Source of the DNA: Cephalotus follicularis
Lineage: Eukaryota > Streptophyta > Magnoliopsida > Oxalidales > Cephalotaceae
Direction: 5' to 3'
Assembly (NCBI GenBank): GCA_001972305.1
Contig: BDDD01000552.1
Coordinates: 338,458 to 402,457 of the forward strand
Length of the DNA stretch: 64,000 bases
Shown: positions 1,861 to 63,226 of the stretch, one piece after another
How positions within the stretch are numbered: the stretch's first letter is position 1
How the letters are laid out: every line of letters starts with the position of its first letter
Position numbers and translations under genes: made by a program
The notes under the pieces: generated by a model
The model's input: the letters and a program-made list of their open reading frames with translations, nothing else
What the model was told of the DNA's origin: nothing
Database searches by the model: none

Positions 1861-1992
1861 AAGCGTCGACGGTTGTTGACTAAGCGTTGACACTACACGC
1901 ATGATCAAAGCTTAAGCGTGGACATTCTAAGCCTTAACAGGGGTTTTCCACACCAAAACGTCGACGGTCTTAATTTAAGCGTCAGCGCTTCT
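1861..1992. repeat. GTCGAC array, GCGTCGACG dialect, T1 LTR
   Basis: GTCGAC-like cores start at 1865, 1886, 1919, 1960 and 1981. The 1865-1886 and 1960-1981 steps are 21 bp. Confidence 0.75.
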
Positions 1993-2604
1993 GGCGTTCT
2001 TACGAATTCCGGGAGCAAAATCAAAATAGGGGATGCATAAATTCAACTCAATCTCAGTCCATTTCAACATGCAATCAAGTATTAACCATCACTACACATT
2101 ATACATGTTATATGTTATATGTTCAAAAACATGTCAAAACCCCTACCTCAATCGCTATCCCGAAATCAATTGGAATTGATTTCTCTCTTTATGTCCAATG
2201 TTATTCACCCTCCTTTCAATCCTTCAATCCCAGTAGTTTTCAATATATATTGGCATTTTTAGCAGAAGATATATATACGCAAAATCAGTATGTATATACA
2301 GGCCAGTTACTATAATCATTATCTGATTTGAATAAAAAAGGATTACTAGAACTTCTAAGCCTCTAATCCCATTTAAATCACTTCTCCATTTTTCAATTAA
2401 CTTCTACAATCCAACTATTGATTTGCATGTTCAACAGTAGGTATATCATTTACATCAACATGTTTACATAACCATCTTAACCACAATAAGTGAGCTTCGA
2501 ATTGTAACTTACCTGGAATCAAAGCTTCAACCACTTGTACTCTTCAAATATTAACATGTAACCTCTAGCACTTCCCAGCAACTGTCAAGCTAGTCCTCCT
2601 CTTC

Positions 2605-2655
2605 CTCAGTGTTTTTCAACACTCAAATAGCTCAAGTATCAGCTGATATAAGTGC
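2605..2655 (-). promoter_or_regulatory. T1 LTR promoter-like block
   Basis: On the minus strand a TTATATCAGCTGAT stretch is followed by GAGCT and by an AGTGTT/AACACT inverted repeat. The same block occurs in T3, T7, T10 and T13 LTRs. TATA function is inferred from composition and conservation. Confidence 0.45.
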
Positions 2656-3118
2656 TCAATCTTGTGTCTTTCATTCCACAGTTGGTTTAACTTTTACTGT
2701 ACATTTCTCTCTCCCTCATGCATGCTGTCACACCCCGTTTATAGAAACGCGACATTAAAGCAGTAAAGGCAATTATCATAAAATACAGCTCATGTAAAAA
2801 CCATAAAAATTACAACTTTTCCTAGAATAACAGTTGCGGAAGCCTAACAAGAACATAAGCTGTCAACATGTAATGTACGTCCCATACCGCACGCTACTCA
2901 AATACAAGTCATCAAGGTTAATCGCCCATAAAACGGAGCGTGATTTACAGTACAATATAAAATTCCTTCAGAAACAGAACCATGACAATAGCACATCCGA
3001 AAACCATAATCCACAAAGGTTTAACAAAACAGGAAGATAACAAGATCAAGAATATAACAGCTTGATCATCGTCCATGCCGATCCAATATTCCACTGGATC
3101 AATCTGTAAAGTAGGGGG

Positions 3119-3143
3119 TTAGCCTTTGTCCTCACTCGGCTAA
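3119..3143 (-). promoter_or_regulatory. T2 3' LTR hairpin with splice-acceptor-like sequence
   Basis: TTAGCC-N13-GGCTAA inverted repeat; reading leftward it is followed by CCCCCTACTTTACAG ending at 3104. Confidence 0.5.
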
Positions 3144-3380
3144 GTCATAACAGTAAATCAGGATCAACATTAATGCATGTCATGATATGAATGCATAAAT
3201 GATGCAGGCAGTGGAGACCCAGTTTATACATATATGAAAATATGTATACGTATGACAGTACAGTAAAATATCAATGATACATATATGAGTAATATACGTA
3301 TACAGTAACAGTACAGTAGTAACCCGGCCAGGGCTACATCAACAATCACAGTAATGTCCGTAAAGGACCAATAAACAGTA

Positions 3381-3502
3381 CAGTACAGTATGTCCACATA
3401 GGACCACGACAACAGGCAGTATGTCCACATAGGACCACAACAGGCAGTACGTTCGCATAGGACCACAACAACAGCATGTCCACATAGGACCACAACCACA
3501 GT
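3381..3502. repeat. Minisatellite in T2 3' LTR, 27-31 bp unit
   Basis: Four copies of a unit built on GTCCACATAGGACCAC begin near 3392, 3423, 3451 and 3478. The matching array in the 5' LTR is at 14862-14975. Confidence 0.8.
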
Positions 3503-3877
3503 AACTCCCACTACGGTCCCCACTTCGGGCAACCGAGCGAGGCAACAGTACAGTGAGTCACCTAGCCATGCTCCAGGCCCCTAGGTACAACCCTACCACT
3601 AGTCGGCGGTGGGAACCTCCGCCATGCAACTAGTAGCGCAAACACAAACACAAACACATAGCAATTCACAGAGCAAACAGTGAATGAAATCAGTAACAGT
3701 ACAGTTGTAATAACCGCAACTTCAATTAATGTGTATTGATCCAATTTTGAATAAAATATACATTTTAATTGAGTTATTTATCCAATTATACTGATTTCTA
3801 TGATTGGTAAATGTTTGGGGTGAATTGATATGCATTTGGAGAAGTATCAAAGACTAGGAAACCCTAATCTAGTCCAA

Positions 3878-3960
3878 ACAGCCGACTGTCACAGGGTAAC
3901 AGTCGACTGTTGGCCACGTGAAGAAGGCAGTCGACTGCCCACTAATTCAAGTCGACTGGT
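3878..3960. repeat. GTCGAC array, CAGTCGACTG dialect, T3 LTR
   Basis: Cores start at 3881, 3902, 3930 and 3951; two of the three steps are 21 bp. Confidence 0.75.
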
Positions 3961-9763: not shown

Positions 9764-9860
9764 TGTAATAACCGCAACTTCAATTAATGTGTATTGATCC
9801 AATTTTGAATAAAATATACATTTTAATTGAGTTATTTATCCAATTATACTGATTTCTATA
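9764..9860 (+). repeat. T3 3' LTR remnant (97 bp)
   Basis: Identical to the 5' LTR start at 3706-3801, then cut off and fused to T2 integrase. Confidence 0.9.
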
Positions 9861-14861: not shown

Positions 14862-14975
14862 TATGTCCACATAGGACCACGACAACAGGCAGTATGTCCA
14901 CATAGGACCACAACAGGCAGTACGTCCGCATAGGACCACAACAACAGTATGTCCACATAGGAACACAACAACAGT
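14862..14975. repeat. Minisatellite in T2 5' LTR
   Basis: Copies of the GTCCACATAGGACCAC unit, matching 3381-3502. Some copies differ between the two LTRs. Confidence 0.75.
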
Positions 14976-15574
14976 ATATAGCGCCGCCAACTCCTGGCCC
15001 CACGCTACACTCCCACTACGGTCCCCACTTCGGGCAACCGAGCGAGGCAACAGTACAGTGAGTCACCTAGCCATGCTCCAGGCCCCTAGGTACAACCCTA
15101 CCACTAGTCGGCACTGGCAACCTCCGCCATGCAACTAGTAGCGCAAACACAAACACATAGCAATTCACAGAGTAAATAGTGAATGAAATCAGTAACAGTA
15201 CAGTAAATAGTAATGATCGATTAGATCGACAACAGGCAGTTGTTTTCCAAAATGTTTCCAAAAATGAAAACATTTGAAAATAGACATTTTCAGTAGAAAA
15301 TATCAATAAACAGTTTCAGTAGTGTAAATCATTTATCAGTTCAGTTGAAAATACGTTATTTGACCAATACATATTTTCATACTCAAAATATCATATTCTG
15401 AGTTCATATATGCATCTCTAAATACCAATACTTTAGAAATCATAAACAATTCACAAACAGTATACAATCAGGCAGTAAACAGTGCATATGCAATGCATAC
15501 ATATGCTCAAATGCACCCTAACAGGAATCGGGATCGTTTCGTATCATTAGACAAAGAAAACCCCTAACAGTAAC

Positions 15575-15935
15575 AAAGACGTTGACGTCTTTCCCAAAGG
15601 CATCGATGTCTTTCACGTCAGGCGTCGATGTCCAAGTCTCAGCATCAGCGCCTTCTTCCACAGAAGACGGCGATGTCAATTTCTCATGCATCGACGCTCA
15701 AGGTCTGGAACCTTAAAATGACAGCGTGTTTTTGATGGCGTCGACGCATTAAGGTAGGAACCTTAGGCGTCGTCGTCTTTCACATCAAAATCCAGGTAGG
15801 TAACCTAGGGCGTCGATGACTTTCCATAGACGTCGATCCCTTTCAATCAGTAACAAGGCAGTACTAAAAAGTCGTCGATGTTATATAAAAGGCGTCGATG
15901 TCTTTTCCAACAGTAGTCGTCTTCTACCTCACGAC
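15575..15935. repeat. GTCGAC array, GACGTCGATGTC dialect, T2 LTR inner array
   Basis: Cores start at 15581, 15602 and 15624 and continue, with decay, to about 15930. The clear steps are 21-22 bp. The array lies between the donor-like and acceptor-like sites. Confidence 0.75.
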
Positions 15936-16671
15936 TTAACAAACAGTGGCCCTAACAACCTATAATCACGCATGATAACAGGTAATCGAGGCAGGGAGCT
16001 AACATGCAGATACTCTAAACATATCTAGCATATCATTGGATGAATCCAGTAACAATAACATTTCAAGAATCATGCATTTTGTACATCCAAAATCATAAAC
16101 CATGCATGGATATCAAACTCGAAATTACAGTATGGCTTTCCCCTACCTCTGGCCTCAAGTTAGAAGCCAAAAGTCCACCTCTTTCAGTATTCCACGAAGT
16201 CACTTGAGTCCCCAGGTACGGCTTGGAAGCTCCCTGGTTTGTCCTAGCAGTTGGTGTGCAAGCTCCAAGCTTCCTTGCTCAACAATGGTGGCACTCACAT
16301 TCACTGTTTTATTCCCTCTCTTTCTTCTGGTGTTATAAAATGAGAGAGATAAGTGGGGAGGGTTATTCTTATGCAGATGGCTCCCCCCAAACATTCTTCT
16401 CCTTCCATTTAATGGGCGCGTTCGTGTCCTCTCCCACTTTCCAGATTTCTGCGTTTTTCTTTTTGTTTTCTATTCTTCTTTCTTTGCAGGCTGCATGTGA
16501 GGGTGGTTTATCCTTGCATGTTCCATGTGAGGGCATGTTCGGAGCATGCCAGGCAATATCCCATCATGATCCATTCGTCACCATGCACTTGTTTGGGCAT
16601 CCGGTAAAGCCCCCCAAAAGATCCCCTTGCATGTTACTCTGCCAGCGAAAAAGCACGACAGATGTTCTTTA

Positions 16672-16835
16672 CAAAGGCGTCGACGTCATTACTTAGGCGT
16701 CGATGTCTTTTCCATTTTTTATAAGAAGGTGTCGATGGCTTCTCCCAAAGTCGACGTACATGTCCACGCGTCCACGTGTACCTCAATCCTCATAGGCGTC
16801 GACGTCTTTCCAAAGACGTCGATGTCTTTATCCCA
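16672..16835. repeat. GTCGAC array, GACGTCGATGTC dialect, T2 LTR outer array
   Basis: Several GTCGAC/GTCGAT cores flanked by AAAGAC and GTCTTT, in the upstream (U3-side) part of the LTR. Confidence 0.7.
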
Positions 16836-42608: not shown

Positions 42609-42634
42609 AGCGAAATTCCAATGTCCAGGAGGAA

Positions 42635-47214: not shown

Positions 47215-48467
47215 TGTAATGACCGAAATATTTTCTTTTGAATTGTTGGATTATTGTTATGGGAGATATCTTGTTTGGTATGTTTTTGTATGTTGTTTTG
47301 TATTTTTTGTTGTTAAGCGTCGATTGGCTAGAAGAAAGCGTCGATTATATAGCTTAAATCATCGATAGTTTAGCTTAGGCGTTGACGGATACCTCGAGGC
47401 GTCAACTAAATTCATAAAGCGCCAATGCAAAGAACTCTTAAAGCATTGACGACTTAGGTAAAGAGGCAACACTTTCATTTTGACCAACGACGTTTTCCCT
47501 ACAGCGGAAGCACTTTGTTATTGCAAAGTATTGTTTGTTAAGTGCCAAGTAGCAATGCTTGAATCAAAGTGTCAACGCTTAAAAGACAACCGGTGACACT
47601 TTACATAAAGCGTCAGCGCTTTGTCGTGCCAGAATAGTCCAAATTTCAATTTTGTCTTCTTGTCAGTAAGTTATGAGATGTTGATGGCAGGTATCAAGCT
47701 AGAGGAGTTATGATCTTTGAAGTATGATTAGGTGTCAGCAAGTAAGGGGATATAATCCTAGGTGTCACCAAATTAAGAGGAGGAGATGCTAAGTGTCAAC
47801 AAGTTGGAGGATAAGAATACTAGGTGTCATGCTATGGGTATGGGTGTTGATGAGACATCCATGGAGGGCATAGACCAGCAGCTATATGTTAGATTAGGGG
47901 TTTCCCTACATGCCACGTGGTGTGGTGCTTGTATATATACACTCTTGATTTATATAGTTCTGTATTCCATTTATGTTCTATGTGAAAATTTATTTATATT
48001 GGCGTGATTATATGGCTCATCCCAACCTACAAAAAGGAACATAATTATTAATTTTAATTAACTATATACCATATATAGCCCTGTCACATCAAAGGGTTGG
48101 ATCTCTTGCCATGGAGGACATGAGAATGAGATAATTATTCCCTGTGACTAAACTGTTCCAAGTCAAAGGTTCACTTTCTTTGGGCCATTGTTGAACCGTG
48201 GTAAAGACTTGCCCATTATGCTTGCCCCCAGGGAGGGAGGATGGATTTTCTCATGGCCCATTTGGTATTATCGTAAAGCTAATGTGGGGTGCGTGCAGGA
48301 TGCATGATGCTAAACTAAACCACCAATAGGATCCCTATTTAGATAGTCAATACCCATGTCAATAGGGATAGTCTTGATAGTGTATAGTCTATGGTGACTA
48401 GTAGGTCTACTCCTGCGTTGTCTCCATTGACATGAGCGGCTATCATGCATTGTGTGGTGACTGCTTG
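47215..48467 (+). mobile_element. T12: probable LTR fragment related to T7/T10
   Basis: Begins TGTAATGACCGAAATATT, matching the start of this LTR group, and contains a decayed GTCGAC array. It lacks the promoter block. T13 enters at 48467 and I cannot find the LTR end, so the right boundary is uncertain. Confidence 0.5.
47313..47630. repeat. GTCGAC array, GCGTCGACG dialect, T12
   Basis: Cores start at 47319, 47340, 47361, 47381, 47401 and 47421 in 20-21 bp steps, with increasingly mutated copies to about 47620. Confidence 0.82.
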
Positions 48468-48809
48468 TGTCACACCCCGCCCTTCCATTACGATTACATT
48501 AGGGGACAAGCATATATGGTGATATCAGAAATACATATAATCTAGCATTTCATTAAACATTTCATGAATAAGCGGAAGCATTCAGTAAGCCGGATTATGA
48601 AACATAAGTCATCGGCACGCAGCCCATACTACGTGCGAGTACAAACCATCAATATCCTTATACATAAGGAAAGTACAACAATAACGGGGTATGAACCGTT
48701 CGTTACAAATACGGTACATCATAAATAATAACAACCTTAAAAATAGAAGCTTCCCACACTTTAGCAGCAACTCCCCGAATGCCTTCACTTAATCTGAAAT
48801 TGTAGGGGG

Positions 48810-48834
48810 TTAGCCGTTGTCCTCACTTGGCTAA
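48810..48834 (-). promoter_or_regulatory. T13 LTR hairpin with splice-acceptor-like sequence
   Basis: TTAGCC-N13-GGCTAA; reading leftward it is followed by CCCCCTACAATTTCAG, ending at 48794. Confidence 0.55.
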
Positions 48835-49610
48835 CTAGGAAGATAAAGCATGTAATTGAATTTATAATTGTACGTATGCATGACAGTTTAAAAGAATGAC
48901 ATATATATATTTAGTATTCCAATATATACGCAATCATGCCAAGTGTCCATAGACAGTGCAATGCAAGAATACCGCACAAGGGTACAATCAATCAGTACAG
49001 TGGTTTGGGTGTCACATGTCGCTAACTCCTAGCACCAACTGTGCACCACCTATCTATCACCCTACACTTCGAAGATGATAGATAAGGTAACATTTACTAC
49101 TGGCATTAGCGGGCAGTTTAACAATCAAGCTCTGCATTGCAGGCAGTTTTGGTGTGTACTCTAGCCAACTCTTTGCACATAGGACCACCTTCGTTAGCCA
49201 GTGACATCTGCCATCACTCGACTAATCGGCAATAACATAGACATTCAATTCATTCAATTCAGTAGTAATATCGCATATATCTATAATATGCAATATACCG
49301 GTGGTTTTCATTTTTAGAAAACATAACAGTCAGTCAATGGTTCTCTTGTGAGAACTAAACAGTAACAGTGCCTCTATTAAGAGGAAAATAGCAGTTTGTA
49401 TAACAATAAGATTTTCTATTTAGAAATCCGTTGTTCGAAATCATTAATTATGCTTTAAGCATTAGGTTGTTAAAAATCCTTGAATAATATATAACAGTCG
49501 AAAACTTACCCAATAACAGTAATAATAGTTACTATATAACATATCAAGGATATCTCCAACCACAAACAATTCAATGGATCAGTTTACACATTTCTACACC
49601 TACTGTTCTA

Positions 49611-49765
49611 AAGCGTCGACAGTTACTATGTAAGCATCGACGGTTAATGACTAGGCGTTGACACTACACAACTTAAGCGTCGACATTCTAAGCCTTAATA
49701 TGCCATTTTTTGCACCAAAGCGTCGACAGTTTCTGTGTAAGCGTTGACGCTTCTTGCATTCATAC
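49611..49765. repeat. GTCGAC array, GCGTCGACG dialect, T13 inner array
   Basis: Cores start at 49615, 49636, 49657 and 49679 (21-22 bp steps), with further copies to about 49750. Confidence 0.85.
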
Positions 49766-50428
49766 GAATTCCAGGAACAATTTCAAAATAGGGGAATACA
49801 CACAATCAACCCAATTCAGTTCATTTCTACATGTAATCCAGTATTGACCATCACAACATATTATACATGTCATAGGTTCAAAAACATGTCAAAATCCCCT
49901 ACCTCAATTGCTATCCCAAAATCAATTTGGAATTGATTTCTCTCTTTATGTCCAATGTTCTTGTCACACCCCGTTTACCAAACGACGTACAAATGGTAGC
50001 AATTAACACAAATAATCTGGCTTATCAAATTTTATGATAAATTTAAACCTTTTTAAACAGGTACATCAGTTGCGGAAGCCTTTAAATATAAGCCAAACTA
50101 ACAAACGTAACGCGCATTCCATACTACGTGTTACAACAAAACAACATCATTGTTAACTGCTCGAGAAACGGAGCGTGATATAACCATCATTTAGTCCATA
50201 AACATCTCACGTAGAGAAGTTCTGATACATAAATCAATTACCAAAGCATTGTTCCAAACCCAAATACAAAATTATCCAAATTGAACAAGTACAAAACATC
50301 ATCCTCTCCAACATGAGAAGGATTATCATAATACAGAAATCAGCTTAAACAACCTTCAAGTAGCAGCCCCCAAAATAGCCTTAACCGCACCGGTCCGATT
50401 GTCTCCGTCAATCTGAAACAGTAGGGGG

Positions 50429-50453
50429 TTAGCCTTTGTCCTCACTCGGCTAA
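50429..50453 (-). promoter_or_regulatory. T14 LTR hairpin with splice-acceptor-like sequence
   Basis: TTAGCC-N13-GGCTAA; reading leftward it is followed by CCCCCTACTGTTTCAG, ending at 50413. Confidence 0.55.
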
Positions 50454-50689
50454 GTATATAACACATTTTGGGATCAAGTAATGAATGACATGATATGAAT
50501 GCATTCATGATGCAGTACATAAATAACACAGGATATACATGATCATAATATATATATATCCACAAGCAGGTATCACCCGAGGTCACAAAAGTACAAGTAC
50601 GAAATTATCCCCAAAGGGGCCAAATACAACGATCAGGTCAATAAGGACCCATCAAGCCAGATCGAAGTTGCTGACACCCAGGCTCAAGA

Positions 50690-51015: not shown

Positions 51016-51604
51016 ATCAAAATTTCACAGTCCATCTCAAGAAATTTATAAGTATAAAATCTTGGAACATATATATATTTCATTCAAATATATAAGAATC
51101 CTCTTCAATCCCTTTAAAGTAGTTTAGTGTATCATAAAATACTTGAAAACCATACATTTTAAAAATATACTCATGTCCGTATAACATAATTTTACTTATG
51201 TGAAACCGTTTCGCAATCCTTTTTGGAAAATATTCATTTCCGTCATAATCCATTTTCAAAGTAATTTATTATATATAAAATACTTGTCAATATTACATTT
51301 GTTCAAATGTATAACTAGTCTTTGCACGGTATTTAATCCTTTGAAATTACTTATTTCAGTATACAAAATTTCAAACATTTGAAATCATTTGTACAGTCCT
51401 TATTAGGAAATATATGTATTTCCACACAATATCATATACATATTTCTCAAATCTAAATCATTTAAGAAATCATGCGGTATCACAATAAAGCAATTCACAG
51501 CAGTATTGAAATGCAACCATATGCTCAAACATGTCTAGGGTCGCTTCTAGAATCGTTCCGGAGCTAACGGGTCCGAAATGGGTCAAACCATACAACCCAG
51601 GAAG

Positions 51605-51840
51605 AAAGACGTCGATGTCTTTCTAAACGCGTCGATGCCCGTTGCCCCAAAAGCGTCGAGGTCCATTCCCAAAGTTACAGCTCGAAACAGTACGATAGCG
51701 TCGACATTTTTCTGCAGCGTCGGCGTTCTTCACAACGCATCGACGTTTAAGGTAGGAACCTTAACACGTCCTCGCGTTATGTACAAGACCTGATGCATGG
51801 CAACGAAAGACGTCGATGCCTTCCATAGACGACGATGTCT
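51605..51840. repeat. GTCGAC array, GACGTCGATGTC dialect, T14 left LTR inner array
   Basis: Cores at 51611, 51631, 51654, then 51700, 51719 and 51739, mostly 19-23 bp steps. Confidence 0.8.
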
Positions 51841-52154
51841 AAGTGGTACCAACAGGTATCACTTCGTCCAATCTCCATTTCCAAGGAGGAATTCTCCCTC
51901 CATTCGTGTATTCACTTCCCAGATACACCACCTATGGCGTAACACGCAATTTTTCTTCTCCTCTTTTCCTTTGCAGGTTCCATGCATGGTAACACTTGTT
52001 ACCTACATCACCCATCTTCAGTCATGCAGGTCAGGGATCCATTCTGCATGATCAACACGTCTCCTTCCCGTGCCTCAAGGCATCTGCATGGATCCTAAAT
52101 CCTTCCCTCTGCACGTTACTCTGTCAGTTCGCAATGTGACAGACAATCTTTTAA

Positions 52155-52300
52155 AAGGCGTCGACGTCTTTCCTTAGACGTCGATGTCTTTTCCTCTTTC
52201 GTGAGAAAGTGTCGATGTCATCACCCTACATCGACGTGCATGTCCATGCATTCACGTGCATCTCGGTTCCAAAAGGCGTCGATGCGTTTACCTCAAAACT
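52155..52300. repeat. GTCGAC array, T14 left LTR outer array
   Basis: GGCGTCGACGTC, GACGTCGATGTC and variants. One pair seen at 54165-54195 in the right LTR is partly missing here. Confidence 0.7.
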
Positions 52301-52459
52301 GCGTCGTTTTCAAGTTTAACACCCATTCTTCTTCCTCCAAACAATATTTAGGGTTTTTAAGCATCTTTGAGATCGAAAACTCAATCATTCTTATTAACTC
52401 AATAATAATATTTCAACAAAATTGAAATATTACACTGTGCAAAAGTCTCGGGCGTTAGA

Positions 52460-52500
52460 ATTCACCCTCCTTCAAAGAAATTCGTCCTCGAATTTCCTTA
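52460..52500 (-). other. T14 polypurine tract and 3' motif
   Basis: On the minus strand TTCGAGGACGAATTTCT leads to GAAGGAGGGTGAAT next to the LTR. Confidence 0.8.
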
Positions 52501-52825: not shown

Positions 52826-53448
52826 TCATAGATAGTAAAAAGTACCTCTCATGATGCCCTTGCCGGTATCTCTCCGCTGTGAAGGTCCAGCTGTAACACC
52901 ACCATCACCTGCAGGTCCAGTGGGCACTGTCACTTGCTTCATAGGAAAATCCCTTCTTAAATGGTCAGGAGCTCCACACTTCATACATGCTCCATTTTTG
53001 CACCAGCAATCCTCCGGTTGATGGCCCTTGCGGTCACAATGGGGACAGACTCCCATCCTAGCATTACTCCCCTGACTAGGAGTGCCCTGATTAGCAGTTT
53101 GCTGAGATTCATTCTTTGTTGACTTTGTTGGAGAATCACTACTTTGCCACTTAGATGAAGCCGGCCTAGACTGCTTGGAAGTTTGGTTGTTCTGTTGTGT
53201 ACGAGCCTTCTCGACGCGGTCTTCACTTGCTATGCTTTCCAGCAATCCTGCCTTTTGGGCAACCTCCACAAAAGTTCCCAACTCCATAGCTCTAATCCTA
53301 GACCGAAGGTCCGGTCGTAGACCCCTCGGGAACCTCCGAATTTTCTTTTCCTCATCCGCCACCAGATAGGCGGAGTGTCTGGAAAGTTCCTTGAACCTGG
53401 CCTGATATTCAGCCACGGTCATCTCCCCTTGTCTCAACTCTAGAAGTT
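52826..53448 (-). pseudogene. T14 gag, C-terminal half
   Basis: Encodes the capsid end ([30 protein letters not shown]) and two knuckles (CPHCDRKGHQPEDC intact; CMKCGAPDHLRRDF with the last Cys replaced by Phe), then the RRDTGKGI linker that precedes protease in T2. It is open for 203 codons but cut on both sides: pol is deleted after about 52826, and at 53449 it runs straight into LTR sequence. Confidence 0.88.
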
Positions 53449-53497
53449 TCGGAGCTAACGGGTCTGAAATGGGTCAAACCATACAACCCAGGAAGAA

Positions 53498-53725
53498 AGA
53501 CGTTGATGTCTTTCCAAACGCGTCGATGCCCATTGCCCCAAAAGCGTCGAGGTAGATTCCCAAAGTTACAGCTCGAAACAGTACGATCGCGTCGACGTTT
53601 TTCTGTAGCGTCGACGTTCTTCACAATGCATCGACATTTAAGGTAGGAACCTTAACACGTCCTCACGTTATGTACAAGACCTGATGCATGGCAACCAAAG
53701 ACGTTGATGCCTTCAATAGACGTCG
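53498..53725. repeat. GTCGAC array, GACGTCGATGTC dialect, T14 right LTR
   Basis: Counterpart of 51605-51840; individual cores differ (for example GTTGAT for GTCGAT) with spacing kept. Confidence 0.8.
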
Positions 53726-54041
53726 ATGTCTAAGTGGTACCAGCAGGTATCACTTCGTCCAATCTCCATTTCCAAGGAGGAATTCTCCCTCCATTCGTGT
53801 ATTCACTTCCCAGATACACCACCTATGGCGTAACACGCAATTTTTCTTCTCCTCTTTTCCTTTGCAGGTTCCATGCATGGTAACACTTGTTACCTACATC
53901 ACCCATCTTCAGTCATGCAGGTCAGGGATCCATTGTGCAGGATCAACACGTCTCCTTCCCGTGCCTCAAGGCGTCTTCATGGATCCTAAATCCTTCCCTC
54001 TGCACGTTACTCTGTCAGTTCGCAACGTGACAGACATTCTT

Positions 54042-54200
54042 TTAAAAGGCGTCGACGTCTTTCCTTAGACGTCGATGTCTTTTCCTCTTTCGTGAGAAAG
54101 TGTCGATATCATCACCCTACATCGACGTGCATGTCCATGCATTCACGTGCATCTCGGTTCCAAAAGGCATCGACGTCTTTCCAAAGACGTCGATGCGTTT
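54042..54200. repeat. GTCGAC array, T14 right LTR outer array
   Basis: Counterpart of 52155-52300 with one extra GACGTC-type pair at 54165-54195. Confidence 0.75.
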
Positions 54201-54765
54201 ACCTTAAAACTGCATCGTTTTCAAGTTTAACACCCATTTTTCTTCCTCCAAACAATATTTAGGGTTTTTAAGCATATTTGAGATCGAAAACTCAACCATT
54301 CTTATTAACTCAATAATAATATTTCAACAAAATTGAAATATTACATTGTGCAAAAGTCTAGGGCGTTAAAGTTCTTCACCCTCCGTTCAATCTCCCAATT
54401 TGCAGAGATTAGCCTAAACAATTGCATGTTTACGGTTTATTCATTAATACCAGCAAGTTATCTTGTTATCAAATCACAATAACAACTTATAATTTAAGCC
54501 ATGGCTTATCATTAGCTTCAAAATTCTCTTTTACAGTTTATACCCATGCGTTCTCTAATTCCAGGTTTGCTCCGTAATTGTTTGTTAGTAATGGATATGT
54601 ATACCCTAACATCAGTACGCCACTTTACTAACAACCTTAACTATATCAAGGAATTTCAGGTTACTTACCAATTTCAGGTGGTGCTCCCAAGTTTCCCCTT
54701 TGAACTTTAGGCTCCTTCAACCTTTAGCACTCGTCCAGCAATTGTCCAGATTGTCTCTCTATCTC

Positions 54766-54812
54766 TCAGTGTTTCTAACACTCAATCAGCTCAAGGGTCA
54801 GCTGATATAAAG
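54766..54812 (-). promoter_or_regulatory. T13 LTR promoter-like block
   Basis: Minus strand TTTATATCAGCTGACC, GAGCTG and GAGTGTTAGAAACACTGA. Confidence 0.45.
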
Positions 54813-55087
54813 GCTCAATTTCGTGCCTTTAATTTCCTCAGCTAGCTTAACTTTCATTGTGCATTTCTCTCTCTCTCATGCATGCATCATCCCTTTTATT
54901 CTTCCCTAAATTTTGTAGGTTGTGCAGGTGGAAGGGGACATGCAAGGCTCTTAGTCTGGCACTATCAACAGATGGTAAGGCCTCTTTTGCATGGCCAACA
55001 CGTTTATGTACACATGCCCATACCTCCATCATTTTAACTCTGCCATTTCACTCCAACTGACACATTTTCTTGGGCCAGAACACGTCT

Positions 55088-55255
55088 AAAGCGTCGCCGG
55101 TTACATCGTGGGGGTCGACGCTTATACGCCTTTAAGTGTCAATGCTAGGCATTTTAAAGTAGACGGTTCGCGCCTAATCTCAGCCTTCAACTGTGTGTAT
55201 TGTGCACGTGTCAGGGCTTAAAGTGTCGACGGTGTGACTTAGGCCTCGGCGGTTT
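55088..55255. repeat. GTCGAC array, GCGTCGACG dialect, T13 outer array
   Basis: GCGTCGCCGG, GGTCGACGCT, GTGTCAATGC, GTGTCGACGG and similar. Matches the T1 outer array. Confidence 0.7.
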
Positions 55256-55398
55256 AACACCAGAAATTATTTCTTTATTTTTCCATTTAAGAATTTTATT
55301 CCAACTTCATTCGATTAAAAAGGTAACATCTCAAAAGGACATTTTATTCATTGATGGTTACAAAATACGTGAATTGAAATTGCGGTTATTACAGCTCG

Positions 55399-55459
55399 AC
55401 TTTGATTTCTGCCTTTCCCAGCACTAGCCACGTGCTGGCAAAAAGGTTGTCTTTGGGGT
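55399..55459. other. Short spacer between T13 and T15
   Basis: Sixty bases, no feature seen; may be the continuation of T12 after T13. Confidence 0.4.
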
Positions 55460-55727
55460 TGTTCACGTAAAAAGAATATTTTAAAATTTATAGCCGCAAG
55501 TGCACGGATCATGCAGTAATGGGTCGAACGCAGGGAAACTATAAACTAGTTATAATATATTCAAACTAGGCGAAGTATACCAATTTTGAGATAAATTATC
55601 AAACTAATGAATAGAAGCTAAGAAAATATATAATTAAAAAGCGGTTTTAGGGTATAGAAACTCACTATATATTGTATTGAACTATTCCATTTAATTGAAC
55701 GATCATACCTTGATAAACAACGGTAGC

Positions 55728-55880
55728 TAGGTCGATACGGAGTGCGGCGGTGATGACAAGACGTATGAGTAGTCACGCTAGGTCTATACGAAGTGTGGAT
55801 TTTAATCAGACAAGACGTATGAGTAGTCATGCTAGGTCTATACGAAGTGTGTTCGTTGCGACAAATCGTATGAGTAGACT
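55728..55880. repeat. Short tandem repeat in T15 left LTR
   Basis: Three copies of a 60-70 bp unit carrying GCTAGGTCTATACGAAGTG and ACGTATGAGTAGTCA. Counterpart at about 61120-61275 in the right LTR. Confidence 0.75.
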
Positions 55881-56249
55881 CCGTTGATTTAAGCACCATT
55901 TATTCACCAACTTTCAGCTTCACCGACAAGATGTTAGTGGATTTTAATCAGACAGACAAAGTGTGTGCGAAGGCAGAAATATTGAACAACAAATAAAATA
56001 TTCATGGATTTTTATTGATGGAATTGAACAATAACAATCTAGGCTTTGTTCTAACCCAAAACCTTGAAAAACTAGCTACAAAACATAATGGAACTAAACT
56101 AAGGAGGGATGTGGCTACTTCCACACACTCTGCCCTATTTGGCCGAAATAACATTGTTTATATGCTACAAAATTGATCAAAAACGGAAATAAAGCAATCC
56201 TAGTTACAAAATCTGGCAAAAGTCTAATCTTTCTATTTCTGCTGCAGAG

Positions 56250-56560
56250 GAAGGCGTCGACTTCTTATGAAAGGCGTCGATGTCTTCTTGTAAAAGTCGC
56301 GTTTTGCTGAGATGCGCTTGAAAGATGTCTACCCTTTAGATGAAAGTCGTCGATCTCTTTTGGTCCAAAAGTTACAGGTCGAATTTACACAAAGACGTCG
56401 ATCCCTATGATGAAAGACGTCAACGCTTTGTTCATAGCTCTTGGAGATAATTTGTATTCTCCAGAAAATACGTCGACTTCTAACAAAAGACGTCGACGCG
56501 TTGTTGAAACCCAGAAAAGACATCGAGGTTTATGATAGACATCGATGCGTTTACTCTGTT
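56250..56560. repeat. GTCGAC array, GACGTCGA dialect, T15 left LTR
   Basis: Cores start at 56256, 56276, 56296, 56326, 56349, 56397, 56419, 56472, 56492, 56522 and 56541, with many 20-23 bp steps. Confidence 0.8.
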
Positions 56561-56756
56561 TTCTGCCAAATTTTGTCAATTCTTTAATCTCTAATCTTTT
56601 AAGCTCCAATTTGCACACTTTTGGGTAGTATTCTTGCACTTTGGTCATTTTGTACTTGTACCTGAAAATCAATATAACACAACCAAAGTAGTCCATTCCA
56701 AGCATAAAAATATTACAAATAACACATTAAAAAACAACACATTTTTATGCTAAACA

Positions 56757-57197
56757 AATACCCCCATACTTAGACTTTGCTTGTCGTCAAGCAATCCAAA
56801 TAGAAAGTTAAAACAAGAAAACACATGCATACACAAAAAATAAAAACTGAAAACACAAACAAGAACATAAACAAAAACCTAACACACTTTCGTAGGAATC
56901 ACGATTTCATTTAGCTTATGCAACAAGCCGTTAAACCCCTAGGTGGCCCTAGTGGATGAGTTTTGTCTCGTGAGTGTTTTCCGGTGAATAAACACCAAAA
57001 ATTCAGTTCATCAAAACTTTGAAAACACGTAAAATGTATCTATACTAAAAAATTCATAGCCCCCCCCCATACTTAAATCTTGCATTGTCCTCAATGCACT
57101 AGAAACAAACTAAAGAAAAGAAAAATGCATGATCACACAAATATAAGAAACAATGCAATAAAATAAAGAACAAAGGGGTAGGGTTTACCGGATATGA
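56757..57197 (-). other. T15 3' UTR with two polypurine tracts
   Basis: On the minus strand AAGTATGGGGGTATT adjoins the LTR (56757-56770). An upstream copy, TTTAAGTATGGGGGGGGG, lies at about 57060-57076 after a TTGAGGACAATG motif. Both are typical of Athila/Tat 3' ends. Confidence 0.8.
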
Positions 57198-58049
57198 TCA
57201 TGGAGGCTCGAAATAACAACGCTCATGAAAGTCCATGGCCTCTTCAATCATTGCAGCTTGAAAATCCAAAAATATTAGTGCTCGCTTCCTTTTCACTTCG
57301 ACCGCGTCTCCAATATCTGTCTTAACAAACTCAAACACACCACGTGAAGGCATAGGTTTAACAATATAAGGATCATCCCAAAAGGATGTCCACCAATAAA
57401 ATCCATCATTAGAACAAGAACATTTGAATGCATCTCCTATTCCTATCATGTCAATCTTAAACATACCACGTGAGAAAACAATTTTAACAATATAAGAGCA
57501 ATCCCAACAAGATCTCCACCAATAGAAACCATCAAGAGAACAATAACAGTGAAAAAAGTTTTCAATAAAACGTAAAGATTGCCAATAAACAATGTAAGCA
57601 TCGTCCCAATAGGACTTCCACCAGTAAAAACCATTTAGAGAACAAAAACATTCAAATGCATCACCTAAACCCATCTTAGCAACCTTACACACACAATGGG
57701 AGAAAACAATTTTTACAATTTTAGAACCATCCCAACACGATCTCCACCAGTAGAAACCATAAAGAGAATCACAAAAATTATGGCCAACCAACCATTGACT
57801 ATCTGAAAAAAGATTGATGATCATATCGTCCAACAAACTCAATATCTCCTTTTGCGTAACCTCTAATTCCTCAAATTCTTGTAAACATTCCATGAAGCTG
57901 TTCTCAAAATCTATGTCAAAGTACGTTTGGTCAGGCATACCGAGTTTGTGTGTGTGATGGGTTAGATGATCCCATTCACTATCCGATGTTGGCTCATTGA
58001 GCTTACTTTCTAACCATGCTAACGCTTCCTCATTTTGTAGCCACATCAA
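57198..58049 (-). CDS. T15 downstream region with aromatic tandem repeats (unknown function)
   Basis: An open stretch of about 283 codons in the same frame as gag and protease, ending at 57198. An acidic N-terminal ~90 residues (EALAWLESKLNEP, EELEVTQKEILSLLDDM) is followed by four copies of a unit with GFYWW-x-S-x-WD and usually YIVK. The units start near 57770, 57645, 57540 and 57415, with 126-, 102- and 126-bp spacing. A basic tail (KRKRALIF) follows. It occupies the place of RT. I do not recognise the repeat. It is the only long part of this frame without a stop. It might be a spacer of the protease-RT linker expanded by tandem duplication, or a separate function. Confidence 0.6.
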   Translation of the reverse strand: MMWLQNEEALAWLESKLNEPTSDSEWDHLTHHTHKLGMPDQTYFDIDFENSFMECLQEFEELEVTQKEILSLLDDMIINLFSDSQWLVGHNFCDSLYGFYWWRSCWDGSKIVKIVFSHCVCKVAKMGLGDAFECFCSLNGFYWWKSYWDDAYIVYWQSLRFIENFFHCYCSLDGFYWWRSCWDCSYIVKIVFSRGMFKIDMIGIGDAFKCSCSNDGFYWWTSFWDDPYIVKPMPSRGVFEFVKTDIGDAVEVKRKRALIFLDFQAAMIEEAMDFHERCYFEPP

Positions 58050-58730
58050 TCTATCCTTTTGTTTAGCTTACTCAACCTCGAATTCTCTCCTGAAATTGCG
58101 ATCAAAGTCGATATTAAAATACGAATCAATGGTATCAGGAATCGAGCGAATCACGTAGACATCATCAAAGTCAGATTGATGCTTTCCCAATCGGAAAATG
58201 TTAAAGTCCATCGACGACTTTCCAAAACTCAACTTCATGAGACCATTTCAACAATTAATCAATGCATTACTTGTGGCCAAGAATGGTCTACCAAGGATAA
58301 CTGGGATTTGGTCTTTTATGTTCACAATAGGTTGGGTATCTAATACGGCAAAGTCGACAGGAAAGAAAAACTCACCAACCTTTTTCAAAACATCCTCAAT
58401 TTTCCCTTTTGGTACTTTTACCGACGTATCAGCTAATTGAAAAGTTGTATTGGTCGGGCGCAACTCTCCTAAACCTAGTTGCTCAAAAACTGACGAAGGC
58501 AACAAATTCACACTTGCTCCTGAATCGAGCAAGGCATGATCGATTTTGGTGTTGCCAATCACACAAGAGATTGTCGGGCAGCCAGGATCTTTATACTTTC
58601 ACATCGTGGGTTGCGAAAACAGTGCACTAATGTTGGCTACCAAGAAAGCCTTTTTCGGAGTTTGAAGGATCCTCCTTTTAGTGTATAAGTCTTTAAGGAC
58701 TTTTGCGTAAGAGGGCACCTGCTCAATGGC
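58050..58730 (-). pseudogene. T15 aspartic protease region
   Basis: Same frame as gag. The core reads ALLDSGASVNLLP, then QLADTSVKVPKG and ILGRPFLATSNALINC, the Athila-type protease. Stops lie near 58606-58604, at 58250-58248 (where relatives have Arg, fitting CGA to TGA) and near 58072. It would cut the polyprotein during particle maturation. Confidence 0.85.
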
Positions 58731-60536
58731 TTAAAGCAATGGGATATTGATTTGAACTTGTTTAAATATATTGATGATCTTTTCCATCGTTGGGGCTTTC
58801 ACATTTTGCAATCTCCTTGGAAAAGGAACTGGGGGATCAAATGAACACTTGGGTATTTCCATTAATTGTTCCTTTCTCTCTTTTTCTTTCTCTTTCCTAA
58901 CTTCTTCTTGCGCATTTAACTTTGTTGGTTGCGCAAAGGAGTCAACCAACTGTTCTTTTGATTTGTCATGCCCAATTGACTCATCCAACTCCTCGCTCAA
59001 ATTTTCTATTTTATCCGCTGGTTGGTACTCACTTCCACTTCGCAAGGCAAATGCTTGGTCGGATGGGCCGGAAGAAGATGAGCATTGCGGATTAGATTGT
59101 GGTTGGATACGATCGGGCTGAATCATATTCGTCCTAGGATTCGGTTCGGGTTGAGAACGCATCTTCCCTTTTTCTCTTGTATGTACCGCAGATGCTAGCT
59201 GACAGATTTGCTTTTCTATGTTGTTCTGACTAGTCATCATCGTGCTCATGAGAAGCTCTATATTCTTTTCTAAAGAAGAAATCCTAGATGTATCTTCCCT
59301 TTGGTTCAATAATCCAGGGGATTGTTGATTTTGGAATTGATTTTGTGGCAAGGATGGTTGGACATTGTTTGAATTCTGGGAGAACCTTGGAAATGTCTGC
59401 TGTTGTGCAGACTGGCTAGGGAAGCTCGAAGGTTGTCCCAAAAACTGTGGAGGTAGGGCACCAATGCTGGAAGGCTACCCTGAAAAATTGGATTGTCCGC
59501 GCATGTTTTTCCCTTGACTCCATGAGAAGTTCGGATGATTTCGCCAACCCGGATTGTAAGTGTTACTATACGGGTTGTATTGGTTCATAGCAGACACATT
59601 CTCAGGAGCATATTGGTTGTCAATATAAATTTGGCATTCTTCAAAAACATGGTTTGGGGACTCGCACCAGGAACACATAGGGGTGTTTTGCTCAATTTGA
59701 TTTACTTGTGTGGAACCCCTAATAAGTGATTCTAATCTAGTCACGAGACTGTCTAATTGTGCCTCTTTAGCAACTGCTCCTTCTATTACGTACCCTTTAC
59801 TTGGCAACGCTCTCTCAGAAACTTGAGCTGACTCCCACTCTTTAGTTCGCTCACCCAAATCTAAAAGGAAATTCCATGCATCGTTTTCATCAGTGTACGA
59901 GGTGAACCCATCGGCACACATAGATTCGACCAATTGCGTGGTCTGGTAATCGATCCCTTCGTAGATGATTTGGCATAAATGCCACGTGTTCAAACCATGA
60001 TGAGGACACTCTAAGAGAAGATCCTTAAAACGTTCCATACACCTAGGAAATGATTCATCGGGTTTTTGACAAAACTGGAGAATGTCGTTCCTAAGTTTAT
60101 TGGTTTTATGAAGCGAAAAGAATTTCTTAAGGAACGAGATAGTGAACTGATCCCAAGTGGAGATGGAATTAGTTGGGAGACTGTAGAGCGACTTCTTAGC
60201 TGCATCTTTAAGAGCAAAATTGATGAATCGCAACTTGATATCATTGTCAGATAGTTGCTGAAGTTTCATGAGGGCACATACCTCCTCGAACTCTCGAGGG
60301 AAGAGATATGCATCCTCGTTGGGTAATCCATGAAAGTACGGGAGCATGCTAATGAATTCTGATTTTAACTCAAAATTGTTCCCGTTAGGTGCAGGCAACA
60401 GGATACTGGATGGTTGAGTTGTCCTAGCGGGGTAGAATCTTTCACGAAGAGTTTGATTTGGGCGTGCGTCCGCCATTGGTCTTGGTTGATTAATTCTTTC
60501 TAAGCGATGGTTTGGACCACGCACCCAATCGGTCAT
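58731..60536 (-). pseudogene. T15 gag
   Basis: Opens at ATG 60536 and runs in one frame to TAA 58733-58731, with an internal TAG at 59477-59475. The capsid region (FHGLPNEDAY, TWDQFTISFLKKFF, LRNDILQF, CPHHGLN) matches Athila/Tat-type gag. A CSWCESPNHVFEEC knuckle and a Gln/Pro-rich tail follow. No frameshift is seen over 600 codons, so damage is by point change only. Confidence 0.88.
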
Positions 60537-60855
60537 AAACTAAGACTAGGTCCGAGATCCTAAGCTAAGGTAAAAAACCTAATTTATCTAAGTTAGAAAA
60601 TTTTGTTAACATTTATGCAAGTGAAAAATGTTGTTAAAATTTATGCTGAACCTAATTATCTATGTTAGAATTTGTTAAAGATTATGCAAATGAGAGTAGG
60701 GTTTGTTAAGGGTTAGGATGATTCCTATTTAAACTAAATTAGAACTGTTAGAAAAACACAAAGACGGAAAAATAAAACAAAAATAAATACTACGAATCAG
60801 TCGAATAAATTTAAACTAATTTAAACCGTTTCCCCGGCAAAGACGCTAAAAACTT
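60537..60855 (-). other. T15 leader and primer binding site
   Basis: TAGCGTCTTTGCCGGGGA on the minus strand (about 60849-60831) resembles the tRNA-Asp type site TGGCGCCGTTGCCGGGGA with changes. The rest is AT-rich leader. Confidence 0.6.
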
Positions 60856-62072
60856 GTTCATGTAAAAAGAATGTTTTAAAATTTATAGCCGCAAGTGCAC
60901 GGATCATGCAGTAACGGGTCGAACGTAGGGAAACGATAAACTAGTTATAATATATTCAACCTAGGCGAAGTATACCAATTTTGAGATAAATTATCAAACT
61001 AATGAATAGAAGCTAAGAAAATATATAATTAAAAAGCGGTTTTAGGGTATAGAAACTCACCGTAGATTGTATTGAACAATTCCATTTAATTGAACGATCA
61101 TACCATGATAAACAACGGCAGCTAGGTCGATACGGAGTGCGGTGGTGATGACAAGACGTATGAGTAGTCACGCTAGGTCTACACGAAGTGTGGATTTTAA
61201 TCAGACAAGAGGTATGAGTAGTCATGCTAGGTCTATACGAAGTGTGTTCGTTGCGACAAATCGTATGAGTAGACTCCGTTGATTTAAGCACCATTTATTC
61301 ACCAACTTTCAGCTTCACCGACAAGATGTTTGTGGATTTTAATCAGACAGACAAAGTGTGTGCAAAGGCAGAAATATTGTAGAACAAATAAAATATTCAA
61401 GGATTTTTATTGATGGAATTGAAACAATAACAATCTAGGCTTTGTTCTAACCCAAAACCTTGAAAAATTAGCTACAAAACATAATGAAACTAAACTAAGG
61501 AGGGAGGTGGCTACTTCCACACACTCTCCCCTATTTGGCCGAAATAACATTGTTTATATACTACAAAATTGATCAAAAACGGAAATAAAGCAATCCTAGT
61601 TACAAAATCTGGCAAAAATCTAATCTTTCTATTTCTGCTGCAGAGGAAGGCGTCGACTTCTAATGAAAGGCGTCGATATCTTCTTGTAAAAGTCGCGTTT
61701 TGCTGAGATGCGCTTGAAAGACGTCGACCCTTTAGATGAAAGTCGTCGATCTCTTTTGGTCCAAAAGTTACAGGTCGAATTTACACAAAGACGTCGATCC
61801 CTATGATTAAAGACGTCGACGCTTTGTTCATAGCTCTTGAAGATAATTTGTATTCTCCAGAAAAGACGTCGACTTCTAACCAAAGACGTCGACGCGTTGT
61901 TGAAACCCAGAAAAGACATCGAGGTTCATGATAGACATCAACGCATTTACTCTGTTTTCTACCGAATTTTGTCAATTCTTCAATCTTTACTCTTTTAAGC
62001 TCCAATTTGCACACTTTTGGGTAGTATTCTTGCACTTTGGTCATTTTGCACTTGTACCTGAAAATCAATATA
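60856..62072 (-). repeat. T15 5' LTR, truncated by T16
   Basis: Collinear with 55460-56672. The last ~82 bases seen in the left copy lie beyond T16, outside the window. Confidence 0.85.
61645..61950. repeat. GTCGAC array, GACGTCGA dialect, T15 right LTR
   Basis: Counterpart of 56250-56560. Several cores that are mutated on the left (for example GTCTAC) are intact here. Confidence 0.82.
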
Positions 62073-62075
62073 AAT

Positions 62076-63226
62076 TGTAGTATTTATTCTTTTTCAATTT
62101 TAATCAAGTTAAACAATGAATACAAATTATATATGCAATTAATAGTAAATAAATAAATAAATTGCACAAAGAAAAGGGTAGAGAGATGCAAACACAGTTT
62201 ATAGTGGTTCGGCAAAGATCATGCTTATGTCCACTTTCCCAAGGTCCTCCTTGAGTTTCCACTAGTGTTCCACTCGAACACAATCTCCGAATATCTTTAC
62301 AGGGGCTATTCGGTGCACCTTTATAATGTTTTGTGATTGACCTCAATCACAAGGGTTCACTCTCCTCTCTTCACTTTAGGGTTCACTCCCCTAAAAATGG
62401 TTTACAAAAATAGTTTGAAGGTATTTTGTGTAGGCTCTCAAAAGCTTGATTTAGCTATTTTTTATTACAATATAATCACTCCTCTTAATGAAAATTGATC
62501 TTTATAATTTTGGAGGCTTTGAACTTTTCTTCTTTTCTTGAATGATTTTTGCTTCCTGAAAAGTTGTTTCTTTTGTTGTGGTTGATTTTGATTTAATAGT
62601 GTTGATATGTGGACCTTGGGATTTGTTGTTATTTTCCTTGGGAAATGTTCCATCAGTCTTGGAAGTTGTTCTGTCAGCCTTGGAAGTTGTTCCATTAGTA
62701 TTGAAAGTTGTTTATGCTTCAAACGATGCATTGAAAACAGCTGAAGTAATTCCTTCTCGCACGCAAAGCGTCGACGGAGTTCTTTAAAGCGTCGGCGCTT
62801 TTGTGAACATTGGAAGTTTGAATTTGAATCTCTGCTCTAAGCACTGACGGTCTTGAAATTTGGGGGCGACGGTTGTCCTCAAAGCGCTAACGGTTTGTGT
62901 TGATGTTGACGCTTTGGGAAATTTCATTAGCCCAAAAGTCTCTGTTTTTAACCGCTGATATAGGCCACCAAAGCGCTGGCGCTTACTTCCGAGCGTCGAT
63001 GGTTGTATTGTTTCTTCTTTGCTTGTAATGCTCCAACTGTTGGCGCTTTGTTCCCAACTTTCGAAGGTTCCCTCCGACGCTTTTTTTTAAAGCGTCGAGG
63101 CTTTAACCTGTTACTTCAGTTTCCTATTTTGACTTTGCAATATTTATCTTATCTTGCCCAAAAGGAAACATTGTTATATACAGATATGTTATCATCAAAA
63201 CATGGATTGAGACATAAATGTCAACA
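62076..63226 (-). repeat. T16 3' LTR
   Basis: Contains the TATAGTGGTTCGGCAAAG-type block common in Sirevirus LTRs (about 62198-62300) and a GTCGAC array at 62764-63105. Confidence 0.75.
62764..63105. repeat. GTCGAC array, GCGTCGACG dialect, T16 LTR
   Basis: GCGTCGACGG (core 62770) and GCGTCGGCGC (core 62791) are 21 bp apart. Decayed copies such as GCACTGACGG, GGGCGACGG, GCGCTAACGG and GCGTCGAGGC continue to 63105. Confidence 0.75.

Follow-up and report, generated by a model that had tools for sequence, protein, structure and literature searches.

Palindromic GTCGAC arrays with a 21 bp pitch in long terminal repeats of copia and gypsy retrotransposons from Cephalotus follicularis

In a stretch of DNA from Cephalotus follicularis, the long terminal repeats (LTRs) of three kinds of retrotransposon carry arrays of a palindrome with the core GTCGAC, repeated at a pitch of about 21 bp. 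The stretch (64,000 nucleotides of contig BDDD01000552.1 in assembly GCA_001972305.1, positions 338,458 to 402,457 of the forward strand; hereafter the window, numbered from its first letter) contains nested LTR retrotransposons of plants, with domains of both the Ty3/gypsy and the Ty1/copia kind. The array-bearing elements are one Sirevirus-like copia element, several Tekay-like gypsy LTR families and one Athila-like element. From their sequence and position we favour, with some reserve, the view that the arrays are cis-regulatory and would bind one or more dimeric proteins, probably host-encoded, in the U3 part of the LTR upstream of the promoter.

Exact copies of GTCGAC number 72 in the window, against a mean of 6.4 and a maximum of 13 in 200 dinucleotide shuffles. 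For pairs spaced 19–22 bp GTCGAC ranks first among the 4096 hexamers with 22 pairs, none of which arose in 200 dinucleotide shuffles made in 1 kb blocks; the runners-up include CGTCGA (18 pairs), which overlaps it, and TATATA, the top unrelated palindrome, with 7. When one mismatch was allowed, pairs at 19, 20, 21 and 22 bp numbered 11, 22, 37 and 12, with the peak at 21 bp, and those at 17, 18 and 23 bp numbered 0, 0 and 1, all these pair counts including homologous copies of single LTRs. Side peaks lay at 28, 41–43, 48–51, 63–64, 70–71 and 92 bp, and the runs at 19–22 bp are interrupted by gaps of, for example, 28–32, 48–53, 69 and 83 bp. The original prediction, made from the letters of the window, was of GTCGAC arrays at about 21 bp in LTRs, to be given up if the spacing were in no excess over shuffled DNA; the arrays are there and, within the window, so is the excess.

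Shuffling was repeated for 23 single regions, 1000 times each; the regions were picked once the arrays were known and several are homologous. No shuffle attained the observed pair count in 14 of the 23, one did so in 2 others, and 13–27 did so in 4 (T1, b55, b20rev and 62.2–63.1 kb). For this test, as for the first scan of array placement, the copia LTR was taken from 34190, its start being set later at 34434. The hexamer ranking and the shuffles by region together reject a chance origin of the arrays. Nearly all exact cores (68 of 72) fall in the delimited LTR and linker pieces, which comprise 23,559 bp and include one retrotransposon linker, with 2 of the 72 elsewhere. Periodicity of coding sequence is likewise rejected, since only 2 of the 72 lie inside the 19 listed open reading frames (ORFs; 18,042 bp).

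Beyond the core the palindromes are of three flank types, CAGTCGACTG (type I), GTCGACGCTT (type II) and AAAGACGTCGAYGTCTTT (type III), which cut across lineages. Their outward half-sites are GACTG, GACGCTT(A) and GAYGTCTTT, from 39, 20 and 50 array sites respectively, with one LTR used per pair (the left one for elements X and D) and with copy-rich families dominating the counts. The sites, and the features of the copia element that bear on them, are as follows (polypurine tract, PPT; primer-binding site, PBS; target-site duplication, TSD).

1865–1965, minus: type II sites, gypsy LTR T1 (about 722–2198, minus; iMet-type PBS at 714)
3881–3956, plus: type I array, gaps 21/28/21, 176–251 bp into the LTR from 3706 (L3706), plus-strand Tekay-like element
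15812–15921, strand unassigned: type III-like sites
16679–16823, minus: type III array, gypsy LTR a16 (16115–17001)
20139–20253, minus: type II sites, LTR b20 (20116–20405; 5' end related to L3706)
20730–20886, plus: type II sites, LTR fragment 20677–21342
21815–21947, plus: type II array, gypsy LTR T7 (5' part 21606–22131; split by element X, TSD TAAAC)
23615–23774, minus: eight-site type I array, 3' LTR of element X (22132–24954), 1181–1335 bp from the LTR 5' end
32497–32544, plus: three-site type I array, in the Sirevirus-like linker before the ENV-position ORF at 33000
33000–33752, plus: ENV-position ORF, PF20167 (below the curated cut-off)
34424–34433, plus: terminal PPT ATGGGGAG and AT, then TG of the 3' LTR, with a flanking inverted repeat
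34621–35097, plus: type I array of 15 linked one-mismatch sites, Sirevirus-like 3' LTR (34434–35697), 188–664 bp from its start
35672–35697, plus: C-rich motif resembling an integrase signal, and end of the Sirevirus-like LTR
35821–35980, minus: eight-site type I array, 5' LTR copy of element X (35698–37160)
40790–40865, plus: type I array, gaps 21/28/21, LTR fragment 40616–40966 (L40616, a relative of L3706)
42639–42755, strand unassigned: type III sites, two pairs
43772–43916, minus: type III array, gypsy LTR a43 (43209–44092)
45053–45161, plus: type I-like array, partly decayed, gypsy LTR T10 (about 44857–46491; iMet-type PBS with one mismatch at 46492)
47319–47426, plus: T12, decayed sites without an exact core
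49615–49748, minus: type II array, gypsy LTR T13 (48468–49961)
51611–52235, minus: type III sites in two clusters, gypsy LTR a51 (51546–52463)
53591–54194, minus: type III sites in two clusters, gypsy LTR a53 (53439–54378; alignment row a54)
55093–55230, minus: type II sites, LTR b55 (54633–55394)
56256–56497, minus: type III array, 3' LTR (55459–56679) of the Athila-like element D
61652–61893, minus: type III array of 10 one-mismatch sites, 5' LTR of element D (60854–62075), 183–424 bp from its 5' end
62770–62796, strand unassigned: two type II-like sites 21 bp apart

Single core positions had been predicted in six places, and these hold to differing degrees. All four in T9 are exact, as are five of six in T7 (21900 reads GTAGAC), three of four in T8 (23615 reads GCCGAC) and one of the two in T16, at 62770 and 62791. 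In T10 two of six are exact, 45053 and 45115; 45073 reads GTCAAC, 45094 GTCCAC and 45156 GCTGAC, and the core placed at 45135 starts at 45136 and reads GCCGAC. T12, for which cores from 47319 to 47421 had been proposed, has none. T8 and T9 belong to separate elements, T8 being an LTR of a minus-strand gypsy element and T9 the 3' LTR (34434–35697) of the plus-strand Sirevirus-like one.

The copia element occupies about 28.8–35.7 kb on the plus strand, with boxes of the CAGTCGACTG kind and a Ty1/copia reverse transcriptase (PF07727 RVT_2, E 9.1e-30) in the ORF 31152–32279. Its terminal PPT, ATGGGGAG, has one mismatch to the Sirevirus octamer AGGGGGAG, which is described as nearly strict in that genus (Bousios et al, 2010, PMC2829016), and the AT/TG attachment site is present (34424–34435). 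Of the roughly four further PPT copies expected in a Sirevirus linker there are one exact (34149) and two with one mismatch (34118, 34188). An inverted repeat spans the PPT junction, the reverse complement of its left arm being TTTTGATGATTGACAAA and the arm in the LTR TTTTGATGATTAACAAA. Palindromic motifs lie upstream of a TATA-like motif in the LTR (188–664) and in the linker before ENV (32497–32544), as in Sireviruses. Close to the LTR end at 35697 is a C-rich motif, TTCACCCCCCCTCTAG (35672–35687), which at 10 bp from that end matches the published integrase signal by description; the published mean distance is 21 bp (PMC2829016). Two marks are lacking. The motif CAGTCGACTG is without the CGG-CCG signature, to which Tnd-1 is one published Sirevirus exception (PMC2829016), and a PBS with TATCAGAGC at a 5' LTR junction found no match with up to two mismatches in 28.8–35.7 kb, where no 5' LTR was found either. 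The 5' part of the element looks rearranged, and the PBS mark may have been lost rather than being absent by nature. Two further repeats touch this element: 28854–29817 and 31550–32513 form a direct repeat, 98.5% identical, that takes in the end of pol as well as the first palindrome of the linker, and 35500–35582 in the LTR matches 62179–62265, beside element D, over 90 bp (77%) on opposite strands.

Element X is a gypsy element on the minus strand (22132–37160, TSD TAAAC) with CAGTCGACTG in its LTR array, and the copia element seems to have inserted inside it. Among the other gypsy LTRs the T1/T7/T13 family and the LTRs 20405 and 55394 have flank GTCGACGCTT, the a16/a43/a51/a53 family has AAAGACGTCGAYGTCTTT, and L3706 and L40616 have CAGTCGACTG. 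An iMet-type PBS is found at 714, 14193 and 46492, the last one having one mismatch. The scanned gypsy ORFs contain the gag-pol domains PF00078, PF08284, PF17921 and PF24626; no integrase C-terminal chromodomain was matched in them, and the Tekay label is tentative and comes from LTR and PPT features. Element D (55459–62075, minus) has a gag with PF03732 and Asp_protease_2 and type III arrays; no reverse transcriptase domain was found in its scanned ORFs. Its gag is 21% identical to the Tekay-like gag over 111 aa, its top named match is from Tasmannia lanceolata (71% over 76%), and partial matches from Cephalotus reach 85–93%. The region after its 5' LTR, TAGCGTCTTTGCCGGGG, may be a tRNA-Asp-like PBS, and on this reading the element is presumably Athila-like. 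Of the three kinds of element originally named, the Sirevirus-like one is supported by several marks and the Athila-like and Tekay-like ones less firmly. Element D also contains an ORF at 57198–58067 that has no Pfam match and has internal repeats at 57304–57768.

Placement was measured in 14 array-bearing LTR copies whose 5' ends could be set, the ends being set by us and several of the copies being homologous. In 11 of them the first site linked at 19–22 bp lies 175–229 bp from the LTR 5' end, with outliers in b55 (276), T1 (308) and X (1181, in an LTR of 2823 bp), and a51 and a53 have a second cluster near the LTR 3' end. Downstream of the array, TATA-like motifs lie at 711 in the Sirevirus-like LTR, 516–518 in D, 418–463 in T13, 432–477 in T1, 327 in T10, 1666 in X and 665 in a16, which favours an array upstream of the promoter. 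Repeated motifs of Sireviruses are described as beginning 200–400 bp past the PPT/LTR junction, upstream of TATA (PMC2829016), a position similar to that of the arrays here.

With the core and three flanking bases on each side masked, raw linker identity at lags of 20–22 does not exceed 0.34 in half of the 14 arrays (T7, X, the Sirevirus-like LTR and linker, L3706, L40616 and a51b), among them 5 of the 6 type I arrays. In these the linkers have turned over between cores that recur at an unchanged pitch. Of two LTR families tested, one shows constraint on the core. This is the a-family, in three LTRs of which the core columns are 96% identical, against 66% elsewhere and a mean of 72% for random window sets, of which 1 in 5000 attains the observed value, in a test biased towards conservation, as its sites were picked partly for occurring in two rows or for being exact in one. 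The CpGs of its cores, with sites chosen from one row, were kept in 12 of 12 cells whichever row served as reference, and those outside the palindromes in 7 of 16, 10 of 14 and 7 of 17 (p 0.0017, 0.067 and 0.001 against the cores). The conservation and CpG counts left out T10 and a52, each one of four rows. Read in the sense of the LTR, there is a weak tendency for the promoter-distal arm of the core to be altered more often than the proximal one (28 against 14 in 15 regions, p 0.04, the regions not being independent), and the bias is opposite in T13, T1, T10 and a53b. Relative to T13 (49410–49965) and T7, T1 (1640–2210) has two of its sites set apart by an inserted 10 bp, close to one helical turn.

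Each palindrome would be bound by a dimeric protein, with the two-fold axis of the site at the junction of GTC and GAC, and repetition at about 21 bp would allow several dimers to bind side by side. Such binding is suggested because the sites combine two-fold symmetry, a fixed pitch, linker turnover and a U3 position, and its outcome would be activation of transcription. A host origin of this protein is preferred, since the core is common to three kinds of element whose genes differ. The binder would most likely be either one host transcription factor or a few paralogues that differ in the outer bases they prefer, which would account for the three flank types. The lineages may have acquired their arrays through local duplication together with selection, and now and then by exchange of arrays between elements. 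We take GTCGAC to be a site preferred by barley HvCBF2 (PLACE CRTDREBHVCBF2); a literature search for this together with retrotransposons returned no paper. A monomeric AP2 binder would not account for symmetry over 14–18 bp. A more specific proposal, to be held tentatively, is that the Sirevirus-like copia and two gypsy lineages of one genome converged on a common code, in which GTC-GAC dyads pitched at 21 bp would be read by one host family of dimeric proteins with paralogue-tuned outer bases. If so, competing retroelements would depend on, and share, one trans-acting factor.

Several observations weigh against regulatory arrays for a dimeric binder. Three of the 23 regions, one related gypsy LTR group (2723–3703, 40967–41509 and 49962–50559), have no pairs at 19–22 bp, and the array of element X lies 1.2 kb into its 2.8 kb LTR. 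A spacing of 19–22 bp is two helical turns; the sites were originally expected to lie on one face of the DNA, which suits the runs at 19–22 bp, but the gaps of 28 and 48–51 bp are not whole turns, and a one-face model would be strict only inside runs. The linkers of T1, T13, T10, a16, a43, a51 and D, the other 7 of the 14 arrays, are 0.37–0.48 identical at lags 20–22, in arrays where the palindrome exceeds the mask or the linkers are related. The cores of the T1/T13/T7 family are no better conserved than expected by chance (1207 of 5000 window sets attain their value), and their CpG retention is not significant (p 0.08–0.16). The TATA-like motifs were scored in A+T-rich DNA without a chance control; some lie inside two of the arrays, those of a16 and the Sirevirus-like LTR, and L3706, L40616, a43, a51, a53 and b55 yielded no such motif. 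Finally, the flank types may mean several unrelated binders.

The reading that competes most closely, and that we regard as possible though short of probable, is spread of the arrays by recombination or template switching between elements in one nucleus; this would be descent and is compatible with binding of a protein. The LTRs had been predicted to be unrelated by descent, and self-BLAST (at least 50 bp) found no homology among the Sirevirus-like, D and gypsy LTRs save for one match of 75 bp between the Sirevirus-like and X arrays. Linkers were examined in 16 array comparisons, in which the palindromes were fixed and the linkers shuffled 200 times. The homologous pair a43/a53 gave 0 of 200, as expected for homologues. 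Type I arrays exceeded this control in Sirevirus-like against X, Sirevirus-like against T10 and X against L3706 (2 of 200 each), and the unassigned array u15 did so against gypsy a43 (1 of 200). Exchange gains further support from linker strings of 8–9 bp, such as TCACAGGG and ACAGGGGTC, in the Sirevirus-like array that recur in L3706 (2 of 300 shuffles), L40616 (1 of 300) and X (1 of 300). The two tests conflict, however: Sirevirus-like against L3706 is not above control by alignment (39 of 200), nor against T10 by string (123 of 300), and by string X against L3706 or L40616 and T10 against X or L3706 are not significant (300 shuffles). For type III, element D against gypsy a43 and a53 and the unassigned u42 and u15 never passes 5% (56, 15, 43 and 195 of 200 attain the score). 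Copying of a single sequence between elements, which would have undone the original claim, is excluded in part: Athila-like against gypsy type III shows no sign of it, and the type I pairs that exceed the control may include it. Type III sharing looks convergent, or due to exchange too old to see, and type I sharing may reflect copia–gypsy exchange or a longer motif. LTRs 3706 and 20405 have at least 55 bp of their 5' ends in common and carry different arrays, which is in keeping with exchange and points to turnover of array modules. An exchange long past, its linkers since replaced, would be indistinguishable from convergence.

That the arrays are targets of an element-encoded anti-silencing protein of the VANC kind, the product of one lineage being used by others, seems unlikely. 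VANC targets are short tandem motifs that differ between related elements, and VANC6 is described as acting also on the unrelated AT9TSD1 (PMC5735166); here the flank types cut across lineages, and the Sirevirus-like element has an extra ORF, 33000–33752 (PF20167), between two arrays. The best 120 of its 325 relatives are all Cephalotus follicularis proteins (72–89% identity), and the adjoining ORF 32571–32999 has a weak match to the same family. Against this, a scan that covered 28 of the 184 ORFs with 70 aa or more showed PF20167 solely in the Sirevirus-like element, no additional DNA-binding protein among the gypsy ORFs scanned and no candidate common to the array-bearing elements; the word palindrome is also absent from the VANC paper (PMC5735166).

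It is more doubtful still that the palindromes act as hairpins in U3 RNA, feeding small-RNA production, which had been raised originally, or packaging. In ten arrays folding is stronger than in dinucleotide shuffles (z −1.7 to −8.6), and small RNAs are over-represented on maize Sirevirus palindrome clusters (Bousios et al, 2016, via PMC10760457 and PMC5311732). With the palindromes fixed and the linkers shuffled, however, all 12 arrays give z values from −1.9 to +1.9, with not one below 5% (the lowest is T10, 12 of 200), and the Sirevirus-like LTR and D fold worse than the control means. RNA structure as the selected feature is rejected on this control; the hairpins look like a by-product of palindrome symmetry and lend the small-RNA idea no extra support. 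Neutral tandem expansion of a 21 bp unit is the least probable account: Tandem Repeats Finder reports period 20–22 arrays at 32495, 34708, 34851 and 45050, and half of the arrays keep some linker periodicity, but the 7 of 14 without it have kept their cores (a simple tandem-repeat origin is rejected solely for these), the a-family keeps its core CpGs and one core recurs at a similar place in three kinds of element.

Sites for a host factor in the control region of a retroelement are familiar from the Su(Hw) array of Drosophila gypsy. The heat-response element of ONSEN and the W-boxes of EVADE (PMC12786077) are alike in this respect. ONSEN, EVADE and Su(Hw) differ from the arrays described here in having a known binder and a single family each. 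The Arabidopsis SIRC are short repeats with diverse spacers, often from mobile elements including ATHILA, and about 43% of their repeats have palindromes (PMC10342631); they are defined by structure only, and neither a common core nor a 21 bp pitch is seen in the description. VANC/VANDAL shares with our arrays a short tandem motif in transposon non-coding DNA and a specificity that shifts between relatives (Hosaka et al, 2017, PMC5735166), and differs in that VANDALs are DNA transposons with a known encoded binder whose motifs, YAGTATTAY and AGTTGTMC, are not termed palindromic there (PMC5735166).

We know of no core shared across superfamilies for sites of the ONSEN, EVADE or Su(Hw) type. Palindromic or repeated cis-elements in LTRs are described as a general theme (PMC10760457). 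The closest likeness is to the Sireviruses, whose repeated motif in Vitis, CGGTCGACCG, has the same GTCGAC centre (PMC2829016) and whose maize LTR palindromes are likewise clustered in the LTR cis-region (Bousios et al, 2016, via PMC10760457 and PMC5311732). The maize palindromes are tied to small RNAs, whereas those here are known from DNA and their structure is accounted for by the palindromes themselves. The repeated motif has been called Sirevirus-specific and absent from the classic Ty1/copia set compared (Bousios et al, 2010, PMC2829016). Unlike it, the arrays here are found also in Tekay-like and Athila-like gypsy elements and their copia version is without CGG-CCG; the gypsy arrays fall outside the published definition, the elements concerned having Ty3/gypsy domains where any remain. 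A search of open-licence papers brought up no account of arrays of GTCGAC palindromes in the LTRs of gypsy elements. Viral contigs contained no CAGTCGACTG pairs and no relatives of the gypsy pol query, and the bare GTCGAC triple pattern occurred in at least 120 of their stretches. Sirevirus boxes, including the GTCGAC-centred one of Vitis, were already known; gypsy arrays with the same core, pitch and place are new, as found in one 64 kb window.

The Sirevirus-only status of palindromic boxes would need extending to gypsy. If the arrays are sites for one factor, unrelated lineages share a control input, which would bear on their joint activity or silence. The question raised in 2010, of what binds the Sirevirus box, becomes testable with a GTCGAC probe pitched at 21 bp, the three flank types serving as natural specificity variants.

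Other repeats in the window include two with a likeness to the arrays in position or pitch. A gypsy LTR pair without GTCGAC arrays (3386–3501 and 14862–14977) has four 28 bp repeats with TATGTCCACATA, and these dyad-like repeats lie about 200–340 bp from the LTR 5' end, a position like that of the GTCGAC arrays. At 62646–62712, just before the sites at 62770 and 62791, are about three 21 bp repeats with TTCCA...TGGAA dyads, which have the same pitch and another motif. The LTR starts 3706–3801 and 9764–9859 are identical over 96 bp and belong to a nested plus-strand gypsy element whose 3' LTR seems shortened. Lastly, 42012–42609 is an exact tandem duplication of about 298 bp, 100% identical, and represents a recent event or an assembly artefact.

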